From assembly GCA_009869945.1 (NCBI GenBank), contig WIXG01000731.1, positions 1 through 24,237 of the forward strand: DNA of 24,237 nucleotides, read 5' to 3'. How positions within the stretch are numbered: the stretch's first letter is position 1; each line of letters starts with the position of its first letter. The translations under genes and the position numbers were made by a program. The stretch is from Mesaphorura yosii. Taxonomy: Eukaryota; Arthropoda; Collembola; Poduromorpha; Tullbergiidae. A model generated the notes under the pieces. The model did no database searches and was not told the DNA's origin. It saw only the letters and a program-made list of their open reading frames with translations. Shown here in pieces: positions 1,616-22,566 of the stretch.

Positions 1616-3063
1616 ATGGATTCCACAATTAACTACAAAAAACTCGAGAACGAGGAATCACATATATTTGAAAGTGATCATGATCACGAAGGGGCCGCCG
1701 ATCATGACTCGTCACCGTCACCGCCACCACTTATCACGATCGAGCAACCTGAACCACGGCCACGACAGCAACAGCAACTGGAAACACCCGAAGAACGATC
1801 GACGTCACAATTCCAGCCTCACTGGTTGTTTTCTTCTGATGAAGACGCACTGGGAACGCCAGCAGCCGTGCCCGTGCCCCGCCACCCTACACAGAAGAAA
1901 CCGTCGTATGGCTCCTGTTCCTCGTCTTCTCGATCTACGAATGATTCGTCAACAATGTAGGTTTCTTTTGACGCGAAATCGCCAATCGCCAATCGTGATA
2001 TTAGATCCATTGACCAACTTTGTTTCTGCTGCATTTTCTTAGTGGCGGACGAACCTTTTCCAAGAAAGGCTTTTCCAATCTCATTCCCGTCAACCTGGAC
2101 CGCAAAGACTGGCCGTTCTATCGGGATATTTTCACAACGCTCCTGGATGTTCGGTGGCGTTGGCTCCTTTGCGCCTTCTGCCTTATTTATTTCATGTCGT
2201 GGCTCTTCTTCGCCTGTCTCTGGTACTCGATCGTCCTCCTCCACGGAGACATTGACGAGTCGCAGCATCCCGAGCATGTGCCCTGCATTACGAACATGAA
2301 AGACTTCACGTCGACATTCCTGTTCAGTGTCGAGACGCAGCACACGACGGGCTACGGCTTCTACCACCTCACCGAGCAGTGCCCGATCGCAATAATCACC
2401 TTCTGCGCCCAGTCCATCATCGGAGTGATTATCGAGGGGCTCATGGTCGGCCTCGTTTTTGTCAAGATGGCACGAGCCAAGAAACGGTCCGCGACTCTGC
2501 TCTTTAGCCGCCACGCCGTTATCAGCCAGCGTGACGGGCAGCTGTGTTTCATGTTCAGAGTCGCAGACATGCGCAATAAATCACATCTGCTCGAGGCTCG
2601 AGTCCGGGCTCAGCTGATTGGGCGTCGTGTGACTGCGGAGGGCGAGGAAATCAATTTCGGGCAGCAGGAGCTGGAAGTGTCTGGCGACGGAGAGCGCTAC
2701 AATCAAGTTCTTCTCTTTTGGCCCACAACCATCATCCACCGCATAACTCCGGCGTCTCCGCTCTACCGCCTAAGGCCGGAAGATCTGACATTCGAGAACA
2801 AACGCTTCGAAATCATCGTCGTGCTGGAGGGCATCGTCGAGACGACGGGGCTCGTGACCCAGGCGAGATCGTCGTACCTACCGACGGAGATTCTGTGGGG
2901 CCACCGCTTCAAAAACATTGGCTTCACGGGCAAGACGAAGAACGGAAACCGGATTGTAGACTACTCCGTCTTCCACGAGACGGTCGACGTGCCGGCGACC
3001 CCTCGACTCAGCGCCTGGCAGCTGGATAGCGAGCGAAAGGCGAAAAACAAAGCAATTATTTAA
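1616..3063 (+). CDS. Inward-rectifier potassium channel (Kir/Irk family)
   Basis: Two exons, 1616-1956 and 2043-3063, flank an 86-bp GT..AG intron (1957-2042) in phase 2, giving 453 residues. Residues 1-113 are a variable, acidic, Pro/Gln-rich cytoplasmic tail. The Kir core follows: slide helix, TM1 (about 154-180), pore loop with filter TTGYG (215-219), TM2 (about 230-254), the basic PIP2-contact stretch KMARAKKR (255-262) and the cytoplasmic beta-sandwich with the G-loop (VETTGLVTQARSSYL region). The conserved pair of pore cysteines is present at 195 and 227. Such tetrameric plasma-membrane channels set resting potential and move K+ in epithelia. The family's usual filter is TIGYG, so the second Thr is unusual. 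TM2 has Glu245 where strong rectifiers carry Asp, which fits polyamine block. The start at 1616 is the only ATG in this frame upstream of the core. A variant poly(A) signal lies at 3165. Confidence 0.95.
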
Positions 3064-3352: not shown

Positions 3353-6300
3353 TCACTGCTGAAAGTAGTAATCCAGATGCTTGTTGATAACATCCGTCGC
3401 TTTCAGGGCCAACGGCTGCAGGCTCCTCGGCTCCAGATTCCGACCCATTTTGTCGCTGATCCGGTTCGCCTGCACTTGCGGGCCATCTCCGCTTCCTCGG
3501 CGCGCAAAGAGCGGGTGATTCTGGCGACCGCGGAGCTGGCCGCTCTCGTCGTCTTCGTACAGCCAGCGGAATGCTTCCAGCGTATTCTCGGTTTCTTCTC
3601 CACCTTCCCCCGAGCCCCCGTCGCTACCACCGACGCTTGCAAACACTTCGTTCCTCCATTGCGCCATGGGCAGAAACTCGCACTCGATTCCCCGCTCCGC
3701 CATGACCTCCTCCATGACGAGCTGCGTCACGGCCGTCTCCGTCGTCATGTTGTACACGCCGTCCTCAGCGGTGCTGCTCAGGAGTAGCTCAAGCGTCAGC
3801 TCCGCAGCGACGTCGACGGGCACGAGCGTGATCCCGTTCGTGTTGTCCATGTACGGGAATTTCCGGAAGCGGACGCACGTCGTGAGCATGTTCCAACCGT
3901 GGTTGAAGTTGTTGTCCAGCGAGATGAAACCCGTGCGGCTGTGGCCCCAAATGCTCGGGTAGCGAATCACCTTCACGGCGGGAAGCCCAGCACGCACAGC
4001 CTCTCCGAGCAGAATCTCGGCCGCAAACTTCGAGACAGAGTAGCCGTTCTTGAGCAGCTCCGTGTAGTCGTCGAGGGTCGGGAACTGCTCAGTCAGGAGC
4101 CCGTCCTCGGTCACGTTCGTCACGGCGAGGAGGCTGGACGCGTGCACGAAGGATTTGAGTCTCCCACCGGCGAGGACGAAACGGAGCACGTGCAGCATTC
4201 CAAAGACGTTCTGGGCGCGGAGGGAGTCGGGAGACGAGTCGGCGCTGTACGGCTCGATGTGGTTGGATTTGATGGCGCAGTGAATTACGGCGTCCACGCT
4301 TGACGCGAGCGACTCGTACGCGTCCGGCGATGAAAAGCCCAGCTGTTCCCGGCCAACGTTGCCCGTAAAAATGCTTACTCGAGCCGGGTTCAGCATCGAT
4401 GCGTCACCAACCTTAAACTTCACGAACGCGTCTTGAAGCCTCGTCTGGCCTTCCTCTACCGAGGACGCTCGGACAACGCAATGAATCTTCAGCTTGGTTT
4501 TGGTCAGCAGCTCGGCGAGAATGTGAGACCCCAAAAAGCCTGTCGCGCCGGTCAACAGAATTTCCTTAAACTCCTTCGGAGACGGTGCACTCTTTTTCTG
4601 CTCCACGGCCGCCTCGATTCCGGCCCGAATGTCTTCGGGGAGCACGGTGTCCTGCTTCAGAAGCTCAATCACGGGCACGTCGTCCGTGTCGCCCGAGCTG
4701 TTGAGCAGATTCGCGAGATGCGTGCTGAGACTCCTCAGCGTGCGGTTCTCCTGGAGCGCGTTGATCGAGAGCGTCTTGTTGCTGTCCACGAGAATCCCCT
4801 GCAGCCGATTCCGCATTTCCATGGCCATGAGCGAGTCGACTCCGAGCTCCGTAAAGTTCTGGTCCGGGTCGATGACGTCGGACGGAGCGAGCCGGAGCGT
4901 CTGCTTCAGAATCTGCTCCAAGTAGTCTTGGATCTTGGTCTGCTTCTCCTCCGGCGAGCAGTTTCTGATTTCCTCGGCGAGTTTTGCGTACGCTGCCGCG
5001 GCGTCAGCGCTCCCGCCCGCCCCGCTGCTGGATTTCAGGTCGCCCAGGAAGGAACCCAGATTCAGAAACTGTTGCACGATCGTCCAGTCCGGGACGTCGA
5101 GCACGCAGGCTTGTGTGTAATTCTGCAGCATGAATTTCTCCAGGGCGTGGATGCCCTGTGAAGGCGTAAACGCGCGGATGCCGACGAGTCCTTCTTGCCC
5201 GAGTTTCAGAAAGGCGGCCGCGCCCACGTCGCTCCACGCGCCCCAGTTGATTGTGGCGCCCGGGAGTCCCATCGCGACGCGGTAGAACGCGAGCGAGTCG
5301 AGAAAACGCGAGGCAGCGGCGTGCGTCGTCTGGCCCATCATTCCTACGACGGCCACCATCGACGAGAACATGGTAAAGAACTCCAGGTCATAATTCAGTG
5401 TGAGTTTGTGCAGCCACCAGGCGCCGTACACTTTTGGGTGGAATACTGAGTTGAATTTCTCCCAACTCTGATTCTGGACGAGCGCATCAGCGAGGACGCC
5501 GGAAGCGAGGAAGATTCCACGGAGAGGCGGCATGCCAGACGACTTGATTTTGTCAAGTAGCGCCACACACTGGTCGTAGTGTCCCACATCGGTTTGGGAT
5601 GTAACGATTTCGCAGCCGGTGGAAGCGGCCAGTTGGTCCAAGAACGCCTGCAGCTGAGGTCCAGGCGGGTTTCTGCCCGCGAGAACGATGTGCTTGGCGC
5701 CTGTCCCGCTCATCCACTTAGTCACCTCGACTCCAAGGCCGCCCAGCCCCCCTGTGATCAAGTACGTCGACTCCGGATCGAAGAACGTGTGCTTCAGGAG
5801 GAGCCGCCCGCCCGCCGCTGGCGAGTTGATGTCCACCGTCGGCATTTTGATGACAATCTTGCCAATGTGCTTCGCCTCTTGGAAGTAGTAGAACGCGTCT
5901 CGGAGCCGCTCCAGTGCAAAGACGGTAAAGGGCAGCGGCTTGTAAGCCTCGGACTCGAAATTCGCGTTAAGGTCTCCGAACGTCTGCTGAATCACCTCGA
6001 CATTCGACTCGTCAGCTGACGCGAGGTCGACAACGTAGTAACGCACGTCCGGCCGGAGCTTGGCGACATCGTCATTCTTCCAGATGTTGAGTTTCCCGAT
6101 CTCGATGAACTGGGCTCCCTTGGCGCAGCAGTCGAGGGTCGTCTCCTTGAAACCGGGGCTCGTGAGCGAGTTGATGACGAGCGTCACTCCGGCGCCGTGC
6201 GTGTCCTTCAGGATTGCGGGGCCATAGTCGAGACTCCGTGAGTTGTACACGTGCTCGATTCCCAGCTGCTGGCGGAGGTACGCCCGTTTTCGCTTGCTGC

Positions 6301-9300
6301 CTGCAGTCGCGTAGATCGTCGCTCCGATCTGCTTGACGATTTGGATCGCCGAAAGCCCTACGCCGCCGGTCGCGACGTGGATAAGGACACGGTCTTTCGG
6401 GGTCAGCTTCCCCAGCCCGATGAGGCAATAGTAACTGGTGAGGAAGACGACGGGGAGCGTCGCTGCTCCGGTGAAGGTCATCAATTTGGGCTTGCGCATC
6501 AGGAGTGCTTCGTGGACGATCGTGTGCGATTTGAGCCCGCCCGTCGTCGTCAGCCCAAACACTTCGTCACCTACCTTCAGGCGCGACACCTGCTCGCCGA
6601 CGGATACGACGACGCCCGAGATGTCACCGCCCACGTCGTACCCGCCATCGCCCCCCGGTTTGACGTAGTGCTCGAAGCCAGGCGGCTTCAGGACGCAGAG
6701 CAGGTCGCGGAAATTGAGCCCGACTGCTCGAATCGCGACTTCGACGTGCTTCTCGTTGGAAATGACCGACCTGCTAACTTCTGGCCCGACTTGAATATCG
6801 GAGAACGAGCCAGAGACCGGGTTGATGAACGCAAAGCGTTCCGTGTTGATTGGCAGCGGGAGCGGCGGCGCAGGTTTGTCCATCGGCGCCAATCGATGAA
6901 CGTATTTCTTCCCACCGCGAATAACGACAAACTTGTCAGCGTTGGTTTGCGATGCGTTGTTGATCACGTTGGGTGTGCTCCAGAACTGAGCGCAGATTTC
7001 GTCCACAGTCCCGTCGTCCACTGCGGGGCTTTTGTCCAGGCCGTCGAGGTCGAGGTCCTGATCCACGTCGATGATGCAGCAGCTGAAATCACGGCACTCG
7101 TTGATGAAAGAGCGGAACGCGCCCCACGCCGTGGCGTTGGCCGGGTTGCCCACGCTCTGGTCGCCCAAGTAATGAATTCCTTTGGCAAGCACGACAACTT
7201 TCGGCTTGAGCTTCTGACTCGTAGCAGTAGCAGCTCCACTTCCGCCTGATGCTGCCGGCGTGTTGAACGAGGCGGACGCCAGATTCTGCAGGAAATGCAA
7301 GAGGCCTCCGATTTTGAAGCGTTCAATCTCTACAATTTGATCCAGGTCGCGGTCGTCGTCCAGGCAGAGGTACACAACGCCTTCGATGGTCAGCGGTGCG
7401 CTGAGAATGGACTCAAACGTCTGCTGGAATTGTTCCACGCTCTCAAAGTCTAGTGTATATTCGTTTTGGTTGTCACGCCTCATGGCAGTTGCTCCAGGTG
7501 TCGGTTTGACGTAAATCAGGTTTCGATTCATTGCTTGCAACCTGGCGCAGACCTTCTGGCTCAGCTTCGTCGGGCTACCGCAGAAAATCCAAGTCTTCAT
7601 GCCGGCTGTCGTGCTGAGCGGCGGCTCCAAAGCAGCCATGGCCATTGCCGGCGCCCTCCCAAAAATCATTCCCACGTCGGAGTTCTCATCCGTCTGGACG
7701 ACGTTCACGTTCGTGAAGCCGCAGCGCCCGAGAACGGAGGACCACTCTTTGCTCGTCACAATCGGGGAGCTCGTCCGAAAGTCGTTGAACCGCCACCAGC
7801 CCTCCAGCATCGCGAACGAGACTTTTATGAAGTGACGGGTCTCGAGCTGCTCCGTGATCATAATGGCCCCATGCGGCCGGAGTAGCGTGCGAATATGGCG
7901 GAGTGTCGTATCCAGATTGGCTGTTGCATGGAGCACCTGCATCGCGAGTACAATGTCGTAGTCCTGCGGGCAGAAGCCTTGCGCCAGCGGATCCTGCTCG
8001 AGATTGAGAATTCCGTACTGCATGTGCGCAGTCCCAAACTGCTCCTGAGCCCTGTCCAGAAACTGATGCGAAATGTCGGTGAATGTGTACTGGTACTTGA
8101 CGCCCGTCTCCTGCAGGAGTTTGATGAGCTTCCCCGATGTGGCGCCCGTTCCCGCGCCGACTTCGAGGATTCTGAGAATATTGGTACTGTTGAAGGTCGA
8201 TGCAGTCGCCGGTGTTCCGACCATTCCGGCTGCTGCTTCGCCTGCGTCCTTTTCCTTCTCCTTCGGAGGCATGAGTTTTGCGACGAGATCTGCAAAAGAC
8301 GCGACTACGACGTCCGATTGAATTGTGTACGTTTCGGATTCCTGATAAAATCGCGATGCGCCAACTTTCGATGTGTCTGAGGGGAAGAGGACAGAGAGCG
8401 CGGATGTTTTCCCCTTCACAATGGACGTCAGCTGCTCCGAGCAATGTAGCGAGAACTCGTAGAATTTTATGTCACGCGTGAGAAGCGATGGAATCTGTTC
8501 TCGCAGTTTGAGGATTGCCTCCTGGCACTCGGAGATGGTTGGAATCGGGCGAAGAATGCGGTGCGCACGTTCTCCGAGCTCGATGTAGCCTTCTTCAGCA
8601 AGGGCGGCCATGAACGAGTAATGGATCCGTGTGTCTTTCAGCTGCTCACCTAGACTTGCCTTCCACATGTCGTATGTCACGGTCGCGCCGACTTGCTGAG
8701 TCACCGCTGGCCAGGGCCATCCACACTCTTGGATGCACTTGACGATGTAGTAAAAACACATCAGATTCGTCTGCCTCCGGCCGACGTCGGTGGAATCGCC
8801 AGCCGTCAGAGCGTAGTATTCCTGAACCTTAGCAGCTGTCTGCTCGGACTCAATCGTCACATTCTGGAGTGTGGTGGCCAAATCGTGTCGGTGTTGAGTG
8901 ACGCCGAGTCGCGGTGCCCAGTTTTCCTGGTAAAAGTCCGGCACGGGCACGGACTCGGCACGAATGGCCCGGATGAAGGAGTCCACGCTGACTTTGATCA
9001 GTTCCAAGCCCTCCAACACAGCGAGCACGGCTCCCGTCTCGTCGTACAGGCAAATCACGCCGTTGGATCCCCCATCGTCGTCGCTGCTGCCGAGAGAGCC
9101 CGAGTACAAGTAAACTGTCTGCGTGGCCGGGACTCGGCCCATCCACGTAAACTTGCGGATGCTCAGCGGAAGTCGGAGCCAATGGTCGTCCTTTGCGAGC
9201 GTTCCGTTCAAAATGGTGCCGAATGCGAATGTCTGGAACATGGCGTCGATCACAATCGGGTGGCAAATGTAGTCCGAGTCGCCTGGGTTGCCTGCGCTCG

Positions 9301-12300
9301 TGTTGTTGTTGCTGTCGGAGTTCGTTGGCGGAGCACTCGGAAGCTGGACCATCGTCAGCACTTCTGTAGCGCTCGTCCAAGCCGCGACGATGCTCTGGAA
9401 CTTGGGCCCAAATTCGATTCCTTTGTCAGCCAGCGCCTCGTACACCGGCCCAATCGACTCCTTTGCTGTGAGCCGCGACTTGATCTGCTCAATATTCATC
9501 GTCCCTTCGTAAGATTTTGAACCCGAGCCGCCAGGTACCTGCACGGCGACGGGCAGAAACGTGGCGGTCGCATGACGTTTCCAGTTGTCAAACTGCCCAG
9601 CGACGAGTGGCCGATGGAAACTGATGGCGTAATGCAGAGCAGCAGCCGATGTGTTTCCTTCTTCTGGTTTGACGCAGGAGACGACCGTCTGCATCTGGAT
9701 CCCTTTCTTGGCCTCCACCTCCAAAGCCGCCTCAATGCTGAGATTCTGCACGGTGAGAGGAATCGCCACTGAGCTTGACGTCGGTCCAAGCAGCTCTTTG
9801 CCCACTGCCAAGGCAGCTTCTAAGTACACGGCGCCGGGAAGGATGATTTTGCCTCCGACTTTGTGGTCAACGACGTACGGTAGCGTCGCTGTCGAAATGG
9901 ACTGGCAATACACGGTTTCAGGGAGGGGTGACGGGATTTGACGCCCAAGCACGGGGTGACACAGCTTCGTGTTCAGGCTCAGGCCGCCGGCACGAGCTCC
10001 GCTTCCTCCGTATAGATCTCCAAAGTCGCCGTCCTCATCCTCATTCTCATTTTGGTTGTACCAGTACTTTTGGCGGTCGAAGGCGTACGTGGGCAGCGCC
10101 AGTTTCTTCGTCGTGCCTCGGTAAGGAGCGAACCATCGGCTCCAGTCCAGGTCCACGCCACCGATGTACAGCCGAGCGACGGTGGCGAGCATGATGCTCC
10201 AGTCGGTGTCATTTGCCACACGCCGGAGCGATGGACAGTACAGCAAATCGTCCGTGCTGCGTTTTCCGTCAAAGTTAGCCATTGCCAGACCAAGAAGAAT
10301 CGGTTGTGGGCCAATTTCAAGTAGAATATTGCAGGTGATGTTTGGGCCGCTGCCGAGGACGCGAATCGCATCGGAAAATCGCACTGTGTGACGCAGATGT
10401 TCGGTCCAGTAAGCAGTATTCAGCAATTCGTCCATCTCCATCACTTTGGCCTTCGTTCCCGAGATGAACATGCAATTCAGCGATGATGCTGAGCGTGAGG
10501 CTTCGAGAGCCTGCTTCACGGCGTTCTCAAATGCGGGCAGAATGGAGTCTATTGCCCGAGAATGGAAAGCGTGAGAAGACGCAAGTTTCTGGCATTTAAC
10601 GTGGTTGTTGACGCAGTACTCTTCAAGCGCAGCGATGGTCTCCTTCGTGCTGGATACGACGACTTCTGCCTGGGAATTGACGGCGGCCACGTCGACCCAG
10701 CAGCCTTTGCCAGGAGCGGTGGCCTGGAAGGACTTCAGGAGCGATTTCACTTTGTCGTTGCTGCACTTCATGACAAGCATGCAACTCTCTGGCAAGGCGT
10801 TGACGAGGCGCGATCGTTCGATGACGAGCATCATCGCCTGCTCCAGGCTGAAAACTCCGGCGGCGACGGCGGCCGCAAACTCGCCAACACTGTGTCCAAG
10901 CACATAGTCGGGGCACACGCCGAGCGCGGCCCAATGCTTCAGAAGGCAATACTGCACGCAGAAGATGGCTGGCTGACAAAAGATGGTGCTCGCCAGCCGG
11001 GACTCATCTTGCCAAATCACGTCGGCCAGACTTGTCCCAAGCCGCTCGTGGAAGAGCGCACTGCACTGCTGAAAAGCGGCTGCGAACGGGGCAGATGTCT
11101 TTTGCAGATTCTGCCCCATTCCGACGTACTGACAGCCTTGTCCAGTGAAGAGGAATCCAATTTTGGGTTTGACGGTCGGTGTTTTTCCGCTCAAGTAGTC
11201 TTGCTTCTGAAAACTGGCGACCGCGCCTTGCAGATCTTTTGCAGTGACGGCTATTCGGTGCGAAAAATTGTGTGCTCGACAGGCGTTTGTGGTGTATGCG
11301 AGGTCGAGGAGCGAAGTAGTCGGATTTCCGGTCAAATAAGCCAAGTATTTGCTGGCCAGCTCCTGCAACGAGTCTTGAGACTTGGCGGAGAGCGTTATCA
11401 GTTGCGGCACCTGCGCACTGGCCTTCGCCTCATTTGTAATCGCCATCGTGCTCGGTTTCGGAGGCGGTTCCTGCAGAATCACGTGCACATTCGTGCCACT
11501 CATGCTGAACGAGCTTACAGCAGCCAGTCGGGTCGCTGTGCTCGGTGGCGGCACCCAATCAGTGAGCTTCGACGGAATGACGGCAGGAATGACACCCAAG
11601 TCGATGTGTGGGTTCAGCGTCTTGAGGTTCAAATGCGGTGGAATTTTTCGATGTTGAATGGCCAGTATTGTCTTGATGAGCCCAGCGATTCCTGCCGCCG
11701 ACTCGGCGTGTCCGATGTTGGTCTTGACAGACGCGATGTGGAGGGGTCGATCTCTGTCACGGCCTTCGGAGTACACACGAGACAGTGCGTACATTTCGAT
11801 TGGGTCACCCACAGCCGTGCCTGTCCCATGTGCCTCGACGTACGAAACTTCCCTCGCCAGCACTCCGGCGTTCTTCAGCGCCTGACGAAATACTTTCTCC
11901 TGAGACGCCGCATTCGGTGTTCCAAAACTCGTGCCCGCCCCGTCGTTATTCAGAGCCGAGCCCCGAATGACAGTGAGGATGTTATCTCCATCGCGCAGGG
12001 CGTCGGGCGTCCGCTTCAGAATCAGCGCGCCGCATCCTTCAGCACGCACAAATCCGTCTGCGCTCTCGTCAAACGTCTTGCATCGGTAATCTTTCGAGAG
12101 CACAATCGTCTTCGTGTCCATCGTCAGCGGTTTTGCGACCCCGAGCGTCAGATTCACTCCGCTCGAGATGGCCAACGAAATCTCGCCACGGCGAAGCGAG
12201 TCGCAGGCGAGGTGGAGTGCGGAGAGCGACGAAGAGCATCCAGACTCCACGGCGATGTTGGGACCGAGCAGCCCAAGAAAGTATGAGATTCGGGAACTCG

Positions 12301-13850
12301 TCGCGCTGAACGCATTCCCGAGATAGCGATGGTGAAACTCTGATGAACTCAGGCCCTTTGAGCCGATGTACGACTCGTAGTCTTGCTGCCAGATTCCGAG
12401 GTAGGAGCCAGTCGTCGTGTCCTTCAGCGATCCGGGCGGAATTCCGGCGTGCTCTAGAGCCTCCCAAATCACCTCCAACAGCAACCGTTGTTGTGGGTCG
12501 ATGAATTGCGCCTCGCGAGGGCTGATTCCAAAGAATTTAGCATCAAATTCATCCACTGGACACTTCAAGAATCCGCCTTCGACTCCGTCAATCTCGGTGG
12601 TTGCGTACGTATTCTTTCGACCAGTCGGAAACGAGTGCACGCCATCACGGCCTTCGGCGAGAAGCTGCCAGAACTCGTCAGGGTTGTTGGATTCAGCGAA
12701 GCGACAGCTCATGCCAACGATGGAGATGGAATTCTGCAGAATTTCCTCGTCGTACGGATGCAGGGCGGCAGAAGAAGCTGAAGGGATCTTCGTCATGCCT
12801 TGTTTGCCGACAAAATCGGTCAGAAATGTCTTCACAGACCCTGCCTCCAATGCCTGGATCTTCGGCAAAATATCTTGAGCATAAACGTGGAGCCAATGAC
12901 TTGATTTTAGAGTCCAAGGTGGTCCTTGCGTGAACGCAAGAATACTTGGAGTGTCAACCCTGCAATGCAATTAGATTAACGTGTTGCTTCTCTTCACTAT
13001 TTTGGGGTTTTGATTTTTTTTAGTAGGACTTACAATTTGTCAGGATTTCCATCCTTATCCACAGTGGCATAAAATGAGTTGTCCAAATTATGGTCTGGCA
13101 AATCGGACCATTCGTTAAAACAAGCAAGAAGAGTGTCTTCAGCTCTGTCTGGAATTTAAGTAAGGTTATCAAGTCTTCAAGTCAACTCAGTAGACACCGT
13201 TTTCGAGCAAATTGAATAAATATCTTTACCAAGTCCCAATTCGTTCCACTTGTGGAGAATTTTCTTAAAAGTATCCAAGTCAGGTTTAAAGACGTAAAGT
13301 AAAGAATGATTGTCCACGGATGAAAAAGCGTTATGTTCGAAAAGATAGTCACAGTTTTCCAGAATCTGGAGAAAGAAGAAACCATAGGAGTACGTACGTA
13401 CGTGAAATAACACAATTTTCCTACGCATAAACTCATGTGTGGCACTCACCAATGAGTTCGGTGGAAGAAAGACGCACTTGTTCCATATTTTCAGGGTCCA
13501 CGCCCAGAATCTGGCACAAATACCAGTAGCCGGTTCTTTTCGCCATTTTTCTATTCCGCAGATTGTCTGGACTTGCTTCGAGGTCGGCTCGTCGATCACA
13601 AGGTCGAATTCTTGCCTTAAGATAAACCTGAAACGTGAAAACCCGAAATTAGAGAGCCCGTCACAAGCTTTCCGAAATCAGCAGTAAAATTTCCGTACGT
13701 AAACGCTGGCGACACATTCTGAGACACAATCACAGTCAGCCTCCTGCTCGTGTACAGATTCTTCAATGAGGAAGCCAACCCCCAAGCTTGCAACGCTTCC
13801 GTGTCATTCTGGACAGTGGTGACCCAAGATTCCTGTGCACATTTGCTCAT
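3353..13850 (-). CDS. Glycogenin-like GT8 domain fused to a reducing polyketide synthase with terminal reductase
   Basis: Five exons: 13705-13850, 13450-13627, 13230-13365, 13034-13148 and 3353-12959. The four introns are 77, 84, 81 and 74 bp with GT..AG ends and consistent phases. The protein is 3393 residues. Domain order: degenerate glycogenin/GT8 (1-230), KS (268-688), AT (792-1103), DH (1193-1518), C-methyltransferase (about 1533-1963), noncatalytic linker (about 1978-2228), ER (2238-2566), KR (2588-2773), ACP (2866-2945), thioester reductase (2991-3328). The layout is that of an iterative, fungal-type highly reducing PKS with reductive release as aldehyde or alcohol. The product is unknown. 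The KR lacks its Tyr and Asn, and the GT8 part lacks its metal ligands. The ATG at 13848-13850 is chosen because glycogenin similarity begins eight codons later and a TATA box lies about 140 bp upstream. The ATG at 12970 inside intron 4 is not the start. Gly/Ser/Asp-rich linkers are eukaryote-like. No tailoring genes or transporter adjoin it. Confidence 0.92.
3551..4564 (-). other. Thioester reductase (release) domain of the PKS
   Basis: Residues about 2991-3328. An extended short-chain dehydrogenase of the thioester-reductase class, with nucleotide-binding TGATGFLG (2995-3002) and the YxxxK pair Tyr3165/Lys3169 in YSVSK. These domains release the chain with NADPH as aldehyde or alcohol in place of hydrolysis. 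A Gly/Glu-rich insert and a tail of about 65 residues follow. Confidence 0.9.
4700..4939 (-). other. Acyl carrier protein domain of the PKS
   Basis: Residues about 2866-2945. Ser2901 in ELGVDSLMAME is the 4'-phosphopantetheine attachment site. There is a single carrier, as expected for an iterative PKS. Confidence 0.95.
5216..5773 (-). other. Ketoreductase domain of the PKS, active site altered
   Basis: Residues about 2588-2773. The NADPH motif LITGGLGGLG (2592-2601) and Ser2725 (MFSSM) are kept. The usual YAAAN of the active site reads HAAAS: His2738 (codon CAC at 5321-5323) replaces the proton-donating Tyr, and Ser2742 replaces Asn. The domain is probably inactive or changed in activity. 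Confidence 0.88.
5837..6823 (-). other. Enoylreductase domain of the PKS
   Basis: Residues about 2238-2566. VGLNFRDLL and GGDISGVV open the domain. The NADPH-binding motif HVATGGVGLSAIQ at 2386-2398 is intact. This is a medium-chain dehydrogenase fold typical of reducing PKS modules. Confidence 0.92.
7646..8938 (-). other. C-methyltransferase domain of the PKS
   Basis: Residues about 1533-1963, including a helical lid region. The SAM-binding motif I, LEVGAGTGATS, is at about 1790-1800, followed by YTFTDIS. The placement between DH and ER and the sequence style match the alpha-methylating domain of fungal highly reducing PKSs. It is predicted to add a methyl branch from S-adenosylmethionine. 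Confidence 0.88.
8981..9958 (-). other. Dehydratase domain of the PKS
   Basis: Residues about 1193-1518, starting at HPVLG. Catalytic His1224 sits in the HxxxGxxxxP motif (DHKVGGKIILPG), and catalytic Asp1430 in HPIVIDAMFQ. Both are intact. An Asn/Ser/Gly-rich insert lies between them at about residues 1400-1420. Confidence 0.92.
10226..11161 (-). other. Acyltransferase domain of the PKS
   Basis: Residues about 792-1103. The acyl-binding Ser882 sits in GHSVGEFAA, and the HAFH motif is at 988-991. HAFH is the family signature for malonyl-CoA choice, against YASH for methylmalonyl. Any methyl branches would then come from the internal methyltransferase. An acidic low-complexity linker (NQNENEDEDGDFGD) follows. 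Confidence 0.93.
11471..12733 (-). other. Ketosynthase domain of the PKS
   Basis: Residues about 268-688. It begins at SIVGMSCRF. The nucleophile is Cys433 in VESGCSSSL, and the two catalytic His are 569 (EAHGTGT) and 609 (NIGHAESAAG). All three are intact, so chain-extending condensation should work. The more usual DTAC motif reads ESGC. Confidence 0.95.
12845..13850 (-). other. Glycogenin-type GT8 domain segment of the PKS gene (degenerate)
   Basis: Protein residues 1-230, over exons 1-4 and the first 38 codons of exon 5. Similarity to animal glycogenin is readable along the whole segment. The start ESWVTTVQND matches the AFVTLxTND start, followed by SSLK then TSRRLTVIVSQNVS. NKCVFLPPNSLIL (98-110) matches KCVFMDADTLVL. 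LDRAEDTLL (153-161) matches the DGGDQGLLN region, and FTQGPPW (201-207) matches HFLGRVKPW. The helix SSHWLHVYAQDILPKI ends the domain as in glycogenin. Glycogenin self-glucosylates a Tyr using UDP-glucose and Mn2+ to prime glycogen. Here both Asp of DxD are Pro104 and Asn106, and the metal-binding His is absent, so catalysis is unlikely. The loop that carries the glucosylated Tyr is shortened. Confidence 0.85.
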
Positions 13851-16976: not shown

Positions 16977-17999
16977 ATGGCGTCCCCAGCAAGTTCTGAC
17001 CCTGTTGACAGCAATCGGAATTTGGACTTGCAGGTTAGCAGAGCCTTGACTTCATGAGTCAATTAGCTTTCCCCATCAAGTTAATCGGAAATGTAATCAA
17101 GTGCGCTGCTCTACTCTGCAGAAAGATGAACTGGAAGCCCTCAAGTCAATTTACGGAGACGATTTCGTGGTTGAGGATCCGAGCACGAATACCTTCAGCA
17201 TTCAGATTCACATTGGAGAAAAGGAAGGCGAAGAGGCGACTCTCGTCATTTCATACACTCCAGACTACCCGTCTATATCACTGCCGATTTATTATCTATC
17301 CATTCCGTGGATTCGTGGACCGGAGAAGCAGAGACTGCACAAAGTGCTGGAAGAATTGTATCGGTAAGTCAATGTAAGTGCGTGCCTGCTCCATTTGTTT
17401 GCTGATTTACAAAAGTCTTCAGTGAATCAAGTGGCGAGTCGGTCATCGTGTACGTGTGGGTCGAAAAATTGCGTGAACTCCTTTCAAAACCTGGAATGAC
17501 TCCTCCGAGCAGTGCTGACGCTGACAATCAACTTACTTCATCGGAGAATCTAATTAAAGAAGCAAGCGAAGCCCCAATTGAAGCTGGAGCCAAAGTCAGT
17601 GCAGTTCCGGTTCCGTTAATAAAGACTGGCGAGCCATTGACGGATCGAAAGAGCACGTTTCAAGCCCACGTCGCTCAAGTGAAGTCGGTGCAGGAAGTCA
17701 AGCTCGTTCTGGCGGAATTGCTCAAGAACAAAAAGATCGCCTCGGCCACTCACAACATGTACGCATACAGGATTCAAAAGAGTGATAAGAATTGGGTGCA
17801 GGACTGCGACGACGACGGAGAGACGCACGCAGGAGGAAGGCTGCTTCATTTGCTGCAGATTTTGGACTGCCAAAACGTCGTGGTAGTGGTGACGAGATGG
17901 TACGGAGGAATCATGTTGTATGGCGACCGCTTTAAACACATTAACAACGTGGCAAGAGTGGCCTTAGAGCAAAATGGGTTCATTAGACTGACAAAGTAG
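16977..17999 (+). CDS. IMPACT/YIH1 homologue (RWD domain plus UPF0029 domain)
   Basis: Three exons: 16977-17033, 17122-17363 and 17423-17999. The introns are 88 and 59 bp, in phases 0 and 2, giving 291 residues, close to the 258-320 of yeast YIH1 and vertebrate IMPACT. Residues 16-115 form an RWD domain (LQKDELEALKSIYGDDF). A charged linker follows. Residues about 168-283 form the UPF0029/Impact domain (GEPLTDRKSTFQAHV, ATHNMYAYR, DDDGETHAGG, VVVVTRWYGG, RFKHINNVAR). IMPACT binds GCN1 through its RWD domain and so restrains GCN2, the kinase that senses uncharged tRNA, in the cytosol. The ATG at 16977 directly follows a TATA-type promoter, and the first exon supplies the residues leading into the RWD. 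It is convergent with the valyl-tRNA synthetase gene. Confidence 0.95.
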
Positions 18000-18157: not shown

Positions 18158-21100
18158 TTAAGTCGTGATATTATCAGGAGGAAGAACAATGAATACGCTG
18201 CATTTTGCCGACACAATCGTGCAGTTGGCCCCCGGCGGCGCCTCCTGCTTGCTCTTCACTAGCTGAATACTTTTGGTGTATGCGAGTGCGTTCATTGTAG
18301 CCTGCTCCTCCCGCACGACAATTTCACTCGTCTCGGCATCGCCCTCCTCGTTGTTCATCACGAAGACTGCAATTACAATAACAAAAATTACAATGTTTCA
18401 ATTAGAATTCGACAATCGTTAGGAATAAACTCAGGCGTATTTTTTCCACGCACCTTCCAGTCTCGACTTATTTGGAATCTTAAGCCCGGACTTGGTGCCT
18501 CTCACAGCATGGACCAAATGGTTCATCACCGCGACTTCCTTTTCGGCCAGCGCATTCACGAACTTCTTAAACTCCGTTGGTCGAGGGTATTTTTCTACGC
18601 ATATTGATGGTGGTCTCGTTTGGGCTTTGAAAGTTGGCAGTCGCTGCCAGAGCTCCTCCGACAAATATGGCATGAATGGCGAAAGCAAGGCAAGTCCCGT
18701 CGATACGCTGAAGAGGAGGACGTCAAGATGACTTTTCTGCTCTGGGCTCAACACGGTGTCCGGCTTCACGTCGGCGTACTTTGGTTTCAGTGACTCGAGA
18801 TACACATCGCAGAGTTCGTACAGCCAAAAGTTGTACACTGCCGTCGTGGCTTCCTGGAAGCTGTACTTCTCCAGTGACCCATCACACACGCGCACGGCGG
18901 TCTCCAGCTTGGACAGAATCCACTTGTCAAGACGGTCAGAGTAATCTTCTGTCTTCGCTGTCGCCGGGGACTCTCGCGCCGTCGCATCATAGTCGCCCAT
19001 CTTCAGGTAGAGCATGGCAAACTTGACGGCGTTCCAGAGTTTGTTGCAGAAGAAGCGGTAGCCTTGAATCCGCATCACGTCGAGGTTGATATCACGAGCT
19101 CCGGCTGTCAAGTGGGCGCAGAGGGCGAATCGCAAGGCGTCAGTCCCGCACTCGGGAATTCCATTCGGGTAAGATTGACGCTGTCCCGCCTTGGCCTTGT
19201 CCAACTCCTTCTTGTCCAGGTTGCCTTCTTCCAGAGCACGATTCAAGTCAGCCAACGTGATTCCTCGAATCACGTCGACTGGGTCGACGATGTTGCCGAG
19301 AGACTTTGACATTTTACGCCCGTGAGCGTCACGGATAATCGAGTGCAGGAACACTTCACTGAAAACGGAAAGGAGGCACAAATGAGTGAGCTCGTAAGTA
19401 GTGATTTAGATTTTATATTAGCGATTCAAAATTCATAGACTTACGTAAAAGGAACTGTTTTGGTAAGGGCGCCGGCCATGAAGACCATTTTCGCCACCCA
19501 GAAGAAGAGAATGTCGTGACCCGTCTCGAGAAGATCCGTCGGGTAAAACGCTTTCAAGTCTTCGTTGCCGTCCTCGGTTGGCCAGCCAAACACGGAGAAC
19601 GGGAACAAGGAGCTGGAGAACCAAGTGTCCAGCACGTCTTCGTCACGCACCAGTTCGAACTTTGTGCCCGCCGGCAGCTTCTTGCCGGCTTTGGTCCTTG
19701 CCTCTTCTTCAGACTCGGCTGCTATCCACAATTCTTCCGCTTGGGGTGGCTGCGTGATGATCCTGTACGCAGGGATTTGGTGACCCCACCACAACTGCCT
19801 GGAAATGCACCAGTCACGAATGCCGTTCATCCAGTGGTTCCAGATCTTGGCGTGGTGCTCAGGAATAAGACGCAACTCTTCCTTCTCAACGACAGCAATG
19901 GCGTCCTTGGCCATCTGCGTGCAGTTCACGTACCACTGCGGCTTCAGGAGTGGTTCCACAATGTCCTTTGAGCGTGAGCAGACAGGGACAACCATCACAT
20001 TGTCTTTGCTTGAGCGGAAGAGACCGAGTTCGGTCAAGGCCGCCAGCACTGCAGTTCGAGCCTCGAATCTCGGCATGCCCTAAAACGGAAGAAAAGAAGG
20101 CACTCGTTACGAGAAAAATTTGGCAAAAAGAGTTAATCTTTCCACCACTGCATTTTCACTTACGGAGAATTTTCCGCAGTTATCCTTCATTTTTCCATCT
20201 TCATCAATGACGGTGATAAATTCAAGATTGTGCCGCTTCCCAATTTCGTAATCGTTCGGGTCGTGAGCGGGTGTGATTTTTACTGCGCCCGTTCCAAACT
20301 CCTTGTCCACGTACTCATCTGCTATGATGATCAGCTCGCGATCCACGAACGGATGTTTTGCCTTACGCCCGAGGAATGCCTTGTATCTTTCATCTTCCGG
20401 ATGGACAGCAATGGCAACATCACCCAGCATGGTTTCCGGTCGCGTCGTGGCCACAACAATTTCCTCCGTCTCGTTAAACTTGTACGCGAATAGGCTGAGG
20501 ACTCCGAACTCGACTTTATTCTTGTAGCCAGGCACTGCCAACATCGTTCGACCCGTCAGCTCAGTTTTGTCCACTTCTATGTCGGAAATGCAGCTTTTGA
20601 GAGTACACGACCAATTCACGAGTCTGTCGGCTCGGTAAATAAGACCCTGAAATAAAATTAAAAGTTGCACCGTGTTCTTGAACTGATATCATCAATTTTC
20701 TGGTATTACCATATCGTACAAAGTCACGAACGCTTTTCTGACAGCCGCAGACAATTTTTCATCCATGGTAAAAGATACTCGATCCCAATCGCAAGAAATT
20801 CCCATTTTCTTTAGCTGTTCATAAATTCTGTCTCCCTTCACCTTCTTCCAATCCCAAACACGCTTTGTGAACTCCTCACGCCCGAGATCATGTCGTGATT
20901 TCCCTTCGGTTCTGGCAATCGTCTTCTCCACTACCATCTGAGTGGCTATGCCCGCATGATCACAACCAGGCACCCAAAGAGTCACCTTCTGTCGCATTCG
21001 ATTCCTGAAAATTTGTAAGTCGCGATTAAAATCACGAAAACTGCAAAACATTGAATCACGTCTTGTCTCCTGCCCTTACCATCTTGTAAGCACATCTTCG

Positions 21101-21865
21101 ACAGTGCACATCAACGCGTGTCCCAAATGCAAAGTGCCGGTCACATTTGGAGGCGGAATCACGATCACAAACTTTCCTCGCCTCTGAATTGCGTGAGACA
21201 AAGACTCGCCTTTCTGCAAATCGAAGTAGGGAATAAGGAATAAGCCATAAAATTCAGGAGCGGAGTGTGAAGATCTTAAATCTTGTTTTAATCTGTTAGT
21301 TTACACTAACCTCAAGTCCGTACTCTGGCTTGAAAAAGCCTTCCCTCACCCACCATTCGTACCAGTTGCTTTCCACAAATCTAGGCTCATATCCGTCCGG
21401 TAACACATCAATCGGCTTTCTTTCGCCCTTTTCAACGATGTTCAAACGGGCAAGCAAATCCTCGAGTGGTGTCTTTGCCTTCTTTGCGGTCTCCTTCTCT
21501 TTTGGCTTGGATGCCGCAGGTGCGGCTGCCGCTGCTTTCTTGGCATTTTCTTTTTCTTGAAACTTTTTCAGCTTGGCCGCCTTCTCAGCTGCCTTCTTGG
21601 CCTCTTTCGCTTTCTTTGCCTGGGTTGCGGCATCGACAGGAGATGGTCCATCTGGAGCGAACCCCAATGACTTCTCAGCGTTTTCTGTCACCTTTTCGTC
21701 TTCTTCTATTTGCACTGGACCCTTTTCTGGTTCGAGAAGCTGCTGCAAATCTGCTGGCGGAAGACGGCTGGAATCGGTATCCTTCTTCGCTTTATGTAGC
21801 TGGGTGTCAGACACCGCAGTGGGGTCGTTGCGTGGGCTTGGCTTTGGACGTTCAGTATCAGACAT
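18158..21865 (-). CDS. Valyl-tRNA synthetase, cytosolic type
   Basis: Seven exons: 21311-21865, 21080-21213, 20710-21004, 20164-20646, 19445-20079, 18454-19358 and 18158-18366. The introns are 63-97 bp with consistent phases, giving 1071 residues. It charges tRNA-Val with valine. Residues 1-150 are a hydrophilic extension with a Lys/Ala-rich helix and no GST domain. Class I signatures are HLGHA (214-218) and KMSKS (716-720). The editing domain shows [10 protein letters not shown] (395-404) and [13 protein letters not shown]. The helical anticodon-binding domain lies at about 770-930. The last exon ends at [14 protein letters not shown], just where the family's C-terminal coiled coil should begin. 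No downstream sequence before 18022 can encode that arm. Editing and catalytic motifs are intact. It is divergent from the queuine transglycosylase gene. Confidence 0.96.
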
Positions 21866-22566
21866 TGTGCTTCGCTTACTTCCCTTCGTGTTGACTCCTC
21901 AGTTGTGAAAACCTGCAGACGAAAAATAACGCCTTATTTAAGGCGTTATGGCTTAGAATGATGAAATGTTATTCAACTATTACCCAATTTCAAAGCACAC
22001 TTACGTTTTAATTAAAATCCAATCAATTACGATTCAGATTGCTGGTCCGGTTCAAGCTTCTGACACAGATCAGGATCAGGTCCGAAATTAGCAGTAGCAC
22101 AGCTGTAGATTTCTTATCTCTGATCTGTACGCGGTCGATACCATGCACACTACTACACGCTTTCACTTCTGAATCTGATGAGCTGTCAATGTCAATCAAA
22201 TCAGGTGGAGGTAATAATTAAAGCACTGTACTTATGCGAAATGAACAGCAGGTTGAATCGATTCTTACTATTCTTGCACGCAATCACGCCGTCAGATTTC
22301 AACATATTTTGTAAATATGTGCAAGGAGATCCTTGCCTTACCGGCTTTCCGAGAGCAGCCAGCGAGTAGCGAGTGAATTCATAATTCCTCGTGTTTCGTG
22401 TTGTGTAAAAGTCTCAATTCTCCAGCCAGCCAGCTGAAATCAATGCAAGGTTCCAATTCATGCTCATATCTATAACTTAATTAAAGTTAGTAAATTACTT
22501 TAAGGCTAGCGTAGGACGAACAGCTTCAGCGAACAGATTAGTGAATTCGAGAGTCTTTGCTTCGCG
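21866..22566. other. Shared spacer between divergent VARS and TGT genes
   Basis: About 700 bp with no convincing exon. It holds a 24-bp palindrome (21926-21949) near the synthetase start and a loose inverted repeat (ACAGATCAG at 22065-22073 with CTGATCTGT at 22120-22128). No clear TATA box precedes the TGT start. It may act as a bidirectional promoter for two tRNA-related housekeeping genes. Confidence 0.55.
21926..21949. repeat. Perfect 24-bp palindrome upstream of valyl-tRNA synthetase
   Basis: Arms ATAACGCCTTA (21926-21936) and TAAGGCGTTAT (21939-21949) flank a TT centre. It lies 61-84 bp upstream of the synthetase ATG. It could be a dimeric protein-binding site, or a hairpin if it is transcribed in the 5' leader. 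Confidence 0.6.

Follow-up and report, generated by a model that had tools for sequence, protein, structure and literature searches.

A glycogenin-like domain predicted to be fused in frame to a reducing polyketide synthase in the springtail Mesaphorura yosii

The locus described here raises the question of whether a single animal gene encodes a glycogenin-type (GT8) domain followed by a complete polyketide synthase (PKS) and, if so, where the front domain came from and what it might do. The stretch analysed, referred to throughout as the window, comprises 24,237 nucleotides of contig WIXG01000731.1 from the genome of the springtail Mesaphorura yosii. On its minus strand, a gene of five exons runs from an ATG at 13850 to an end at 3353 (Table 1). 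The four introns, of 71, 84, 81 and 74 bases, all have GT-AG boundaries and lie in phases 2, 0, 1 and 2, and the spliced frame of 3395 amino acids contains a single stop, the terminal one. The sequence NPDKLVDTPSILAF is a stretch of this fused protein. According to Pfam, the PKS domains follow one another as KS-AT-DH-MT-ER-KR-ACP-reductase, all in order. Motifs that we take to be the active-site patterns of these domains are present in KS, AT, DH, MT, ER, ACP and reductase, while the catalytic Tyr of the KR is replaced by His.

Table 1. Features of the fused gene in the window (positions in the window; domain limits with their Pfam families)
Feature	Position	Strand	Remarks
Exon 1	13699..13850	(-)	start codon; N-terminal portion of the glycogenin-like domain, MSKCAQESWVTTVQND...
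Exon 2	13450..13627	(-)	glycogenin-like domain; PPN at the DxD place, about 13456-13464
Exon 3	13230..13365	(-)	glycogenin-like domain, ILENCDYLFEHNAFSS...
Exon 4	13034..13148	(-)	glycogenin-like domain; the phase 2 intron after this exon matches an intron place in the ordinary glycogenin gene
Exon 5, start	12848..12959	(-)	C-terminal portion of the glycogenin-like domain, with PW motif and closing helix
Exon 5, whole	3353..12959	(-)	one exon of ~9.6 kb: end of the GT8-like domain and complete PKS
Ketosynthase (KS)	11624..12733	(-)	PF00109 and PF02801; Cys, His, His motifs
Acyltransferase (AT)	10220..11155	(-)	PF00698; GHSVG motif
Dehydratase (DH)	8984..9958	(-)	PF21089 and PF14765
C-methyltransferase core (MT)	7865..8167	(-)	PF08242
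Enoylreductase (ER)	5849..6754	(-)	PF08240, PF00107, PF13602
Ketoreductase (KR)	5228..5770	(-)	PF08659; His at the catalytic Tyr place, 5321-5323
Acyl carrier protein (ACP)	4715..4927	(-)	PF00550
C-terminal reductase-type domain	3800..4555	(-)	PF07993 (NAD_binding_4)

Animal-type genes, in which introns were seen by eye, flank the fused gene. The neighbours are an inward-rectifier potassium channel (about 1616-3063, plus strand, gene ends by eye), a UPF0029 gene (16977-17999, plus strand, ends by eye), a class I tRNA synthetase, by eye of the valyl type (18174-21866, minus strand, ends by eye), and a queuine tRNA-ribosyltransferase (from 22567 on, plus strand, ends by eye).

A sequence-only reading of the window had proposed that exons 1 to 4 encode a continuous frame that aligns with animal glycogenin, and the comparisons bear this out. 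In a phmmer search, window residues 5-171 matched PDB chains of glycogenin-1 (best E 4.7e-16, 62 bits), and alignment of two profiles, one built from five fused domains and the other from 15 glycogenins, gave a probability of 99.9% (E 1.1e-37, 226 aligned columns). These 15 sequences were picked from 119 listed glycogenin-like matches, out of 2955, and the 14 that carry an organism name come from different animals. The profile-profile alignment takes in the PW motif and the closing helix and extends to window residue 231. As the aligned residues from 195 on belong to exon 5, the homology crosses the exon 4/5 junction and continues for 37 residues (195-231; 38 had been counted earlier) into the exon that also encodes the KS. 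The Pfam family for GT8, PF01501, gave no match to the window domain at E up to 1 and none to the four spliced paralog domains scanned at E up to 10; it matches the ordinary glycogenin of this genome on contig C264 (E 1.4e-23), and none of its eight matches genome-wide lies at a PKS locus. The expected GT8 relationship is therefore seen against glycogenin itself, by phmmer and by profile-profile alignment, but not with the Pfam profile.

The arrangement recurs within the genome. Searching all contigs with the window domain (E up to 10) returned 13 matches, five of them in the window, one at C264, which is the ordinary glycogenin gene of the genome, and seven on contigs C246, C632, C135, C225 and C851, on each of which a KS match lies just downstream of the domain match. 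Recurrence at five further loci makes the glycogenin-PKS arrangement more than chance. The C851 domain, at E 0.16 with the window domain, reached 3.1e-27 with a profile from which C851 had been left out. A profile search over 50 loci, covering ~1.5 kb upstream for most PKSs outside the clade described below, detected nothing under E 1 beyond the six fused loci and C264; coverage of the whole genome was by the search with the window domain alone. An assembly artefact was considered as an explanation and is unlikely, given the presence of the arrangement on six contigs and the animal-type neighbours of the window gene. An arthropod source agrees with 66 Chitin_bind_4 matches in the genome; a search of the assembly for COX1 gave no match.

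The 93-Mb genome holds many pieces of type I synthases, on contigs C641, C444, C908, C841, C155 and C1104 among others, and yields 36 KS matches, of which the 17 best-scoring were used for the KS trees. In these trees the window gene belongs to an eight-gene clade (support 100/99) with C627, C246, C135, C225, C632, C851 and C799. Six of the eight members carry the domain. C627 and C799 are without it, and ~5.4 kb of sequence upstream of each contains nothing GT8-like (best E 2.4 and 0.3). Since these two genes fall in different halves of the clade, the simplest account would be that each lost the domain independently. The in-frame joining of a glycogenin-type domain and a reducing PKS, as first proposed from the letters of one locus, is thus upheld by a single 3395-residue frame and is better supported than could then be known, because it is common to six of eight clade members.

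The structure of these genes bears on whether they are single genes. In the models for C246, C135, C632 and C225, splicing at GT-AG introns brings the domain and the KS into one frame; the models start at the domain, with upstream exons of some of them unplaced. Intron phases were computed, and intron places were assigned by visual inspection of the alignment. Three genes (window, C246 and C135) have intron A, in phase 2, and four (window, C135, C632 and C225) have intron B, in phase 0; intron C, in phase 1, and intron D, in phase 2, are common to all five gene models. Intron D is also present in the ordinary glycogenin gene C264 (30380/30465, phase 2), at the matching codon plus or minus one residue. 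One or two extra phase-0 introns, with no counterpart in the window gene, precede the KS in each of the four spliced paralogs. In C135, the modelled intron A measures 2440 bases compared with 60-165 for all other modelled introns, so that the first exon of this model could be mis-joined. A single open frame of 3162 amino acids spans both the KS of C851 and the first half of its domain; this frame probably includes a short intron that happens not to disrupt it.

Two adjacent genes, a glycogenin-like one that stops short of exon 5 and a PKS gene whose start lies within that exon, would have a possible start codon in the window, namely an in-frame Met of exon 5 that lies 22 residues before the KS motif. 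Together with C225, C632 and C851, the window gene is one of four in which such a Met occurs 22 to 176 residues ahead of the KS motif, so that in these four a PKS start without exons 1-4 is possible; in the GT8-less genes a Met precedes the motif by 8 residues (C627) or about a dozen (C799). However, the KS exons of C246 and C135 contain no in-frame Met between the last splice acceptor and the KS, the C851 KS shares one frame with half of its domain, the same linkage and introns are found at the four other spliced loci, and the glycogenin homology extends well into exon 5. The C851 frame, the Met-less exons and the common introns rule out a two-gene organization in our judgement, and we give it very little residual probability. 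As judged from the gene models, the glycogenin-like domain and the PKS are thus very probably encoded by one gene and made as one polypeptide.

With regard to origin, the six fused domains form one group against 16 glycogenins (the 15 above and C264), with support of 99/98. Within this group, a split of C225, C632 and C851 from the rest (100/99) agrees with the KS tree. When the GT8 tree is rooted on the glycogenins, the window and C135 branch first (85/77), an order not recovered in the KS tree. The branches of the GT8 tree are very long, and the program issued a warning to that effect; the case for a single origin therefore rested mainly on the common introns. We infer that a copy of the host glycogenin was probably fused once to a PKS, before the expansion to eight genes. 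The idea that host 5' exons had been captured is supported as an account of origin, since one intron place is common to the fused genes and the host glycogenin gene, but may not be the whole account.

The same build was also sought in other proteins. For a 2609-residue query, none of 417 candidates among proteins of 1435-4566 amino acids reached E 1 or better in region 1-240, in a search that required shared five-letter words and so likely misses similarity at the distance of the paralogs. For a 1900-residue query, whose matches bear on a possible lateral acquisition of the PKS, run against proteins of up to 3325 amino acids and thus shorter than the window protein itself, the best 120 of 7919 matches were bacterial where an organism was named, with scores inflated by repeated KS modules. 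Two bacterial candidates for a PKS of the same build, P0087 and P0097, were rejected as two-module proteins.

The residues of the fused domains suggest that glycogenin chemistry has been abandoned. Both Asp residues of the DxD motif, the Asn of FNSG and the equivalents of D159, D162, Q163, H212 and K218 (in what we take to be rabbit glycogenin numbering) are invariant in the 15 aligned glycogenins. In the window, C246, C135, C632, C225 and C851, in that order, the second DxD Asp is replaced by N, N, N, H, C and R, and the first place reads P, S, D, H, H and H, with PPN in place of DAD in the window. At the places of the FNSG Asn, D162, Q163, H212 and K218, none of the six fused domains has the glycogenin residue, the H212 and K218 places being gaps in some rows; D159 is kept in the window only. 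The acceptor-Tyr column, in a gappy part of the alignment, holds Tyr in none of the six compared with 14 of the 15 glycogenins. Judged by these residues, the fused domain appears to be a dead glycogenin. In addition, the glycogen-synthase (GYS)-binding motif occurs downstream of C264, as WEQGTMDYMGKDSFDNI, whereas neither domain nor linker contains it in the window gene and the four spliced paralogs (C246, C135, C632 and C225).

Another feature of the family lies in the reductive half of the PKS. Of the six genes with the domain, five (window, C851, C135, C632 and C225) have His at the place of the KR catalytic Tyr and one (C246) has Asn; the Tyr is kept in both GT8-less members, C627 and C799. 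This co-occurrence hints that reductive processing and the front module may be functionally linked. The link is not a clean one, because the KRs of C641 and C1104 also have His at this place. Among the 120 best of the 7919 matches, the KR motif has Tyr in 66 and His in four, the latter in four similar proteins, and four others were set aside as non-KR. Matches to the KR family number 36 in the genome, although the weaker among them may represent ordinary short-chain dehydrogenases. The KR of C1104 is of the PKS type, but the contig gave no match in the genome KS search.

The explanation that we prefer, with a probability of about 60% as a whole, is that a host glycogenin was fused once, lost its catalysis and was kept as a structural or docking module. 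A duplicate of the host glycogenin gene would have been joined to a PKS gene that multiplied afterwards, giving polypeptides in which a glycogenin-like domain of about 235 residues precedes an iterative reducing PKS ending in a reductase. The domain would then have lost its glucosyltransferase activity, being also without the glycogen-synthase tail, and two of the eight paralogs would have lost it altogether. Where retained, it may serve as a folded, non-catalytic module ahead of the KS, most likely for homodimer stability or partner docking. Glycogenins dimerise, and the adjoining KS would be dimeric as well. For the structural-module part by itself, we consider the odds to be even or somewhat better. 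A stronger version, in which the dead glycogenin works as a dedicated platform at the N-terminus, for dimerisation or docking, and shapes the assembly of the PKS or the placement of the enzyme, fixed once and kept in the family, is offered tentatively, with odds well short of even.

The main rival is that a glycogenin copy supplied the PKS with promoter, 5' exons and start codon, leaving the domain as a functionless, decaying relic, which we regard as rather unlikely. The loss of catalytic residues in all six domains would be expected of a relic, and slow decay also fits the absence of the domain from two of the eight clade members, its shortening in C851 and its faster change than the KS (identities of 25-47% among five fused domains versus 46-71% among the KSs of the six). 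Nevertheless, the frame is open through the domain at six loci and the splice sites are present at five. Moreover, 22 columns are invariant among the five fused domains, 18 of them when C264 is added, and in all 10 pairs of the five domains second codon positions differ least and third positions most. This pattern of substitution suggests that the domain is under constraint, looser than that on the KS. Pseudoenzymes with ligand-sensing or regulatory roles exist, and the fused domain could likewise act on the PKS as a sensor or regulatory module that has retained binding of a ligand such as a nucleotide sugar or a glucan; the fold appears to be kept as far as homology tells, but with the equivalents of the second DxD Asp, H212 and K218 gone in all six and the replacing residues varying among paralogs, we consider such binding improbable. 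More doubtful still is a link of polyketide synthesis to glycogen stores through attachment of the domain to glycogen or its pairing with ordinary glycogenin. Dimerisation of glycogenin and the presence of an ordinary glycogenin gene in the genome would allow this, but the acceptor-Tyr column is non-Tyr in every fused domain, in an uncertain part of the alignment, and the GYS-binding motif of C264, the genome's own glycogenin gene, is missing from the window gene and the four spliced paralogs. For the latter reason, a scaffold to glycogen-synthase surfaces, one of the roles suggested originally, is unlikely. We continue to favour a non-catalytic structural or docking module.

Our literature search, mostly at the level of titles and abstracts and with subscription journals outside its range, found no description of a glycogenin-PKS fusion. 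The reducing PKS itself is of a known kind; the glycogenin-like front module appears to be new. The mapping of animal PKSs is only beginning, and since the largest survey consulted, PMC10764717, by its own statement, analysed KS domains only, fusions at the front end would go unnoticed in it; the string 'glyco' does not occur in its main text. Likewise, 'glycogenin' does not occur in the main text of PMC5490193, and the single mention that we located in PMC3188802 is in the reference list. In the present family, a host metabolic protein would have become joined to a PKS in a single event and multiplied in one genome, and the family would also be a case of a glycogenin-derived pseudoenzyme. Its six members with the domain and two without form a natural series in which the role of a non-catalytic N-terminal domain in a megasynthase can be tested.

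Taken against known systems, the fused domain resembles glycogenin-1 and glycogenin-2 (GT8; PDB 3v90, 1ll2 and 4ueg) by homology over the whole catalytic domain and by the intron place common to the fused genes and the genome's own glycogenin gene. It differs from them in the loss, in all six domains, of the second DxD Asp, the FNSG Asn, D162, Q163, H212 and K218, in the missing GYS-binding motif of the five fused genes checked, and in being joined to a PKS. The remainder of the protein resembles the reducing type I iterative PKSs of fungi and bacteria with a C-methyltransferase and a terminal reductase, in domain order and in most active-site motifs; unlike these, it has an extra N-terminal glycogenin-like domain and His at the KR catalytic Tyr. 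The animal FAS-like PKSs (AFPKs), as presented in PMC10764717, are likewise type I synthases of animals, and a few arthropod sequences ending in R domains are mentioned there by Lin et al. 2024; the window PKS differs from AFPKs in having a C-methyltransferase. Furthermore, its KS clade lies apart in the KS tree from a six-gene clade holding C927, C354 and C682, which we infer to be the FAS-like genes of this genome. A further parallel is offered by the horizontally acquired PKSs of Folsomia candida, for which the main text of PMC5490193 gives 30 type I PKS clusters, again a large number of such clusters in a small soil arthropod.
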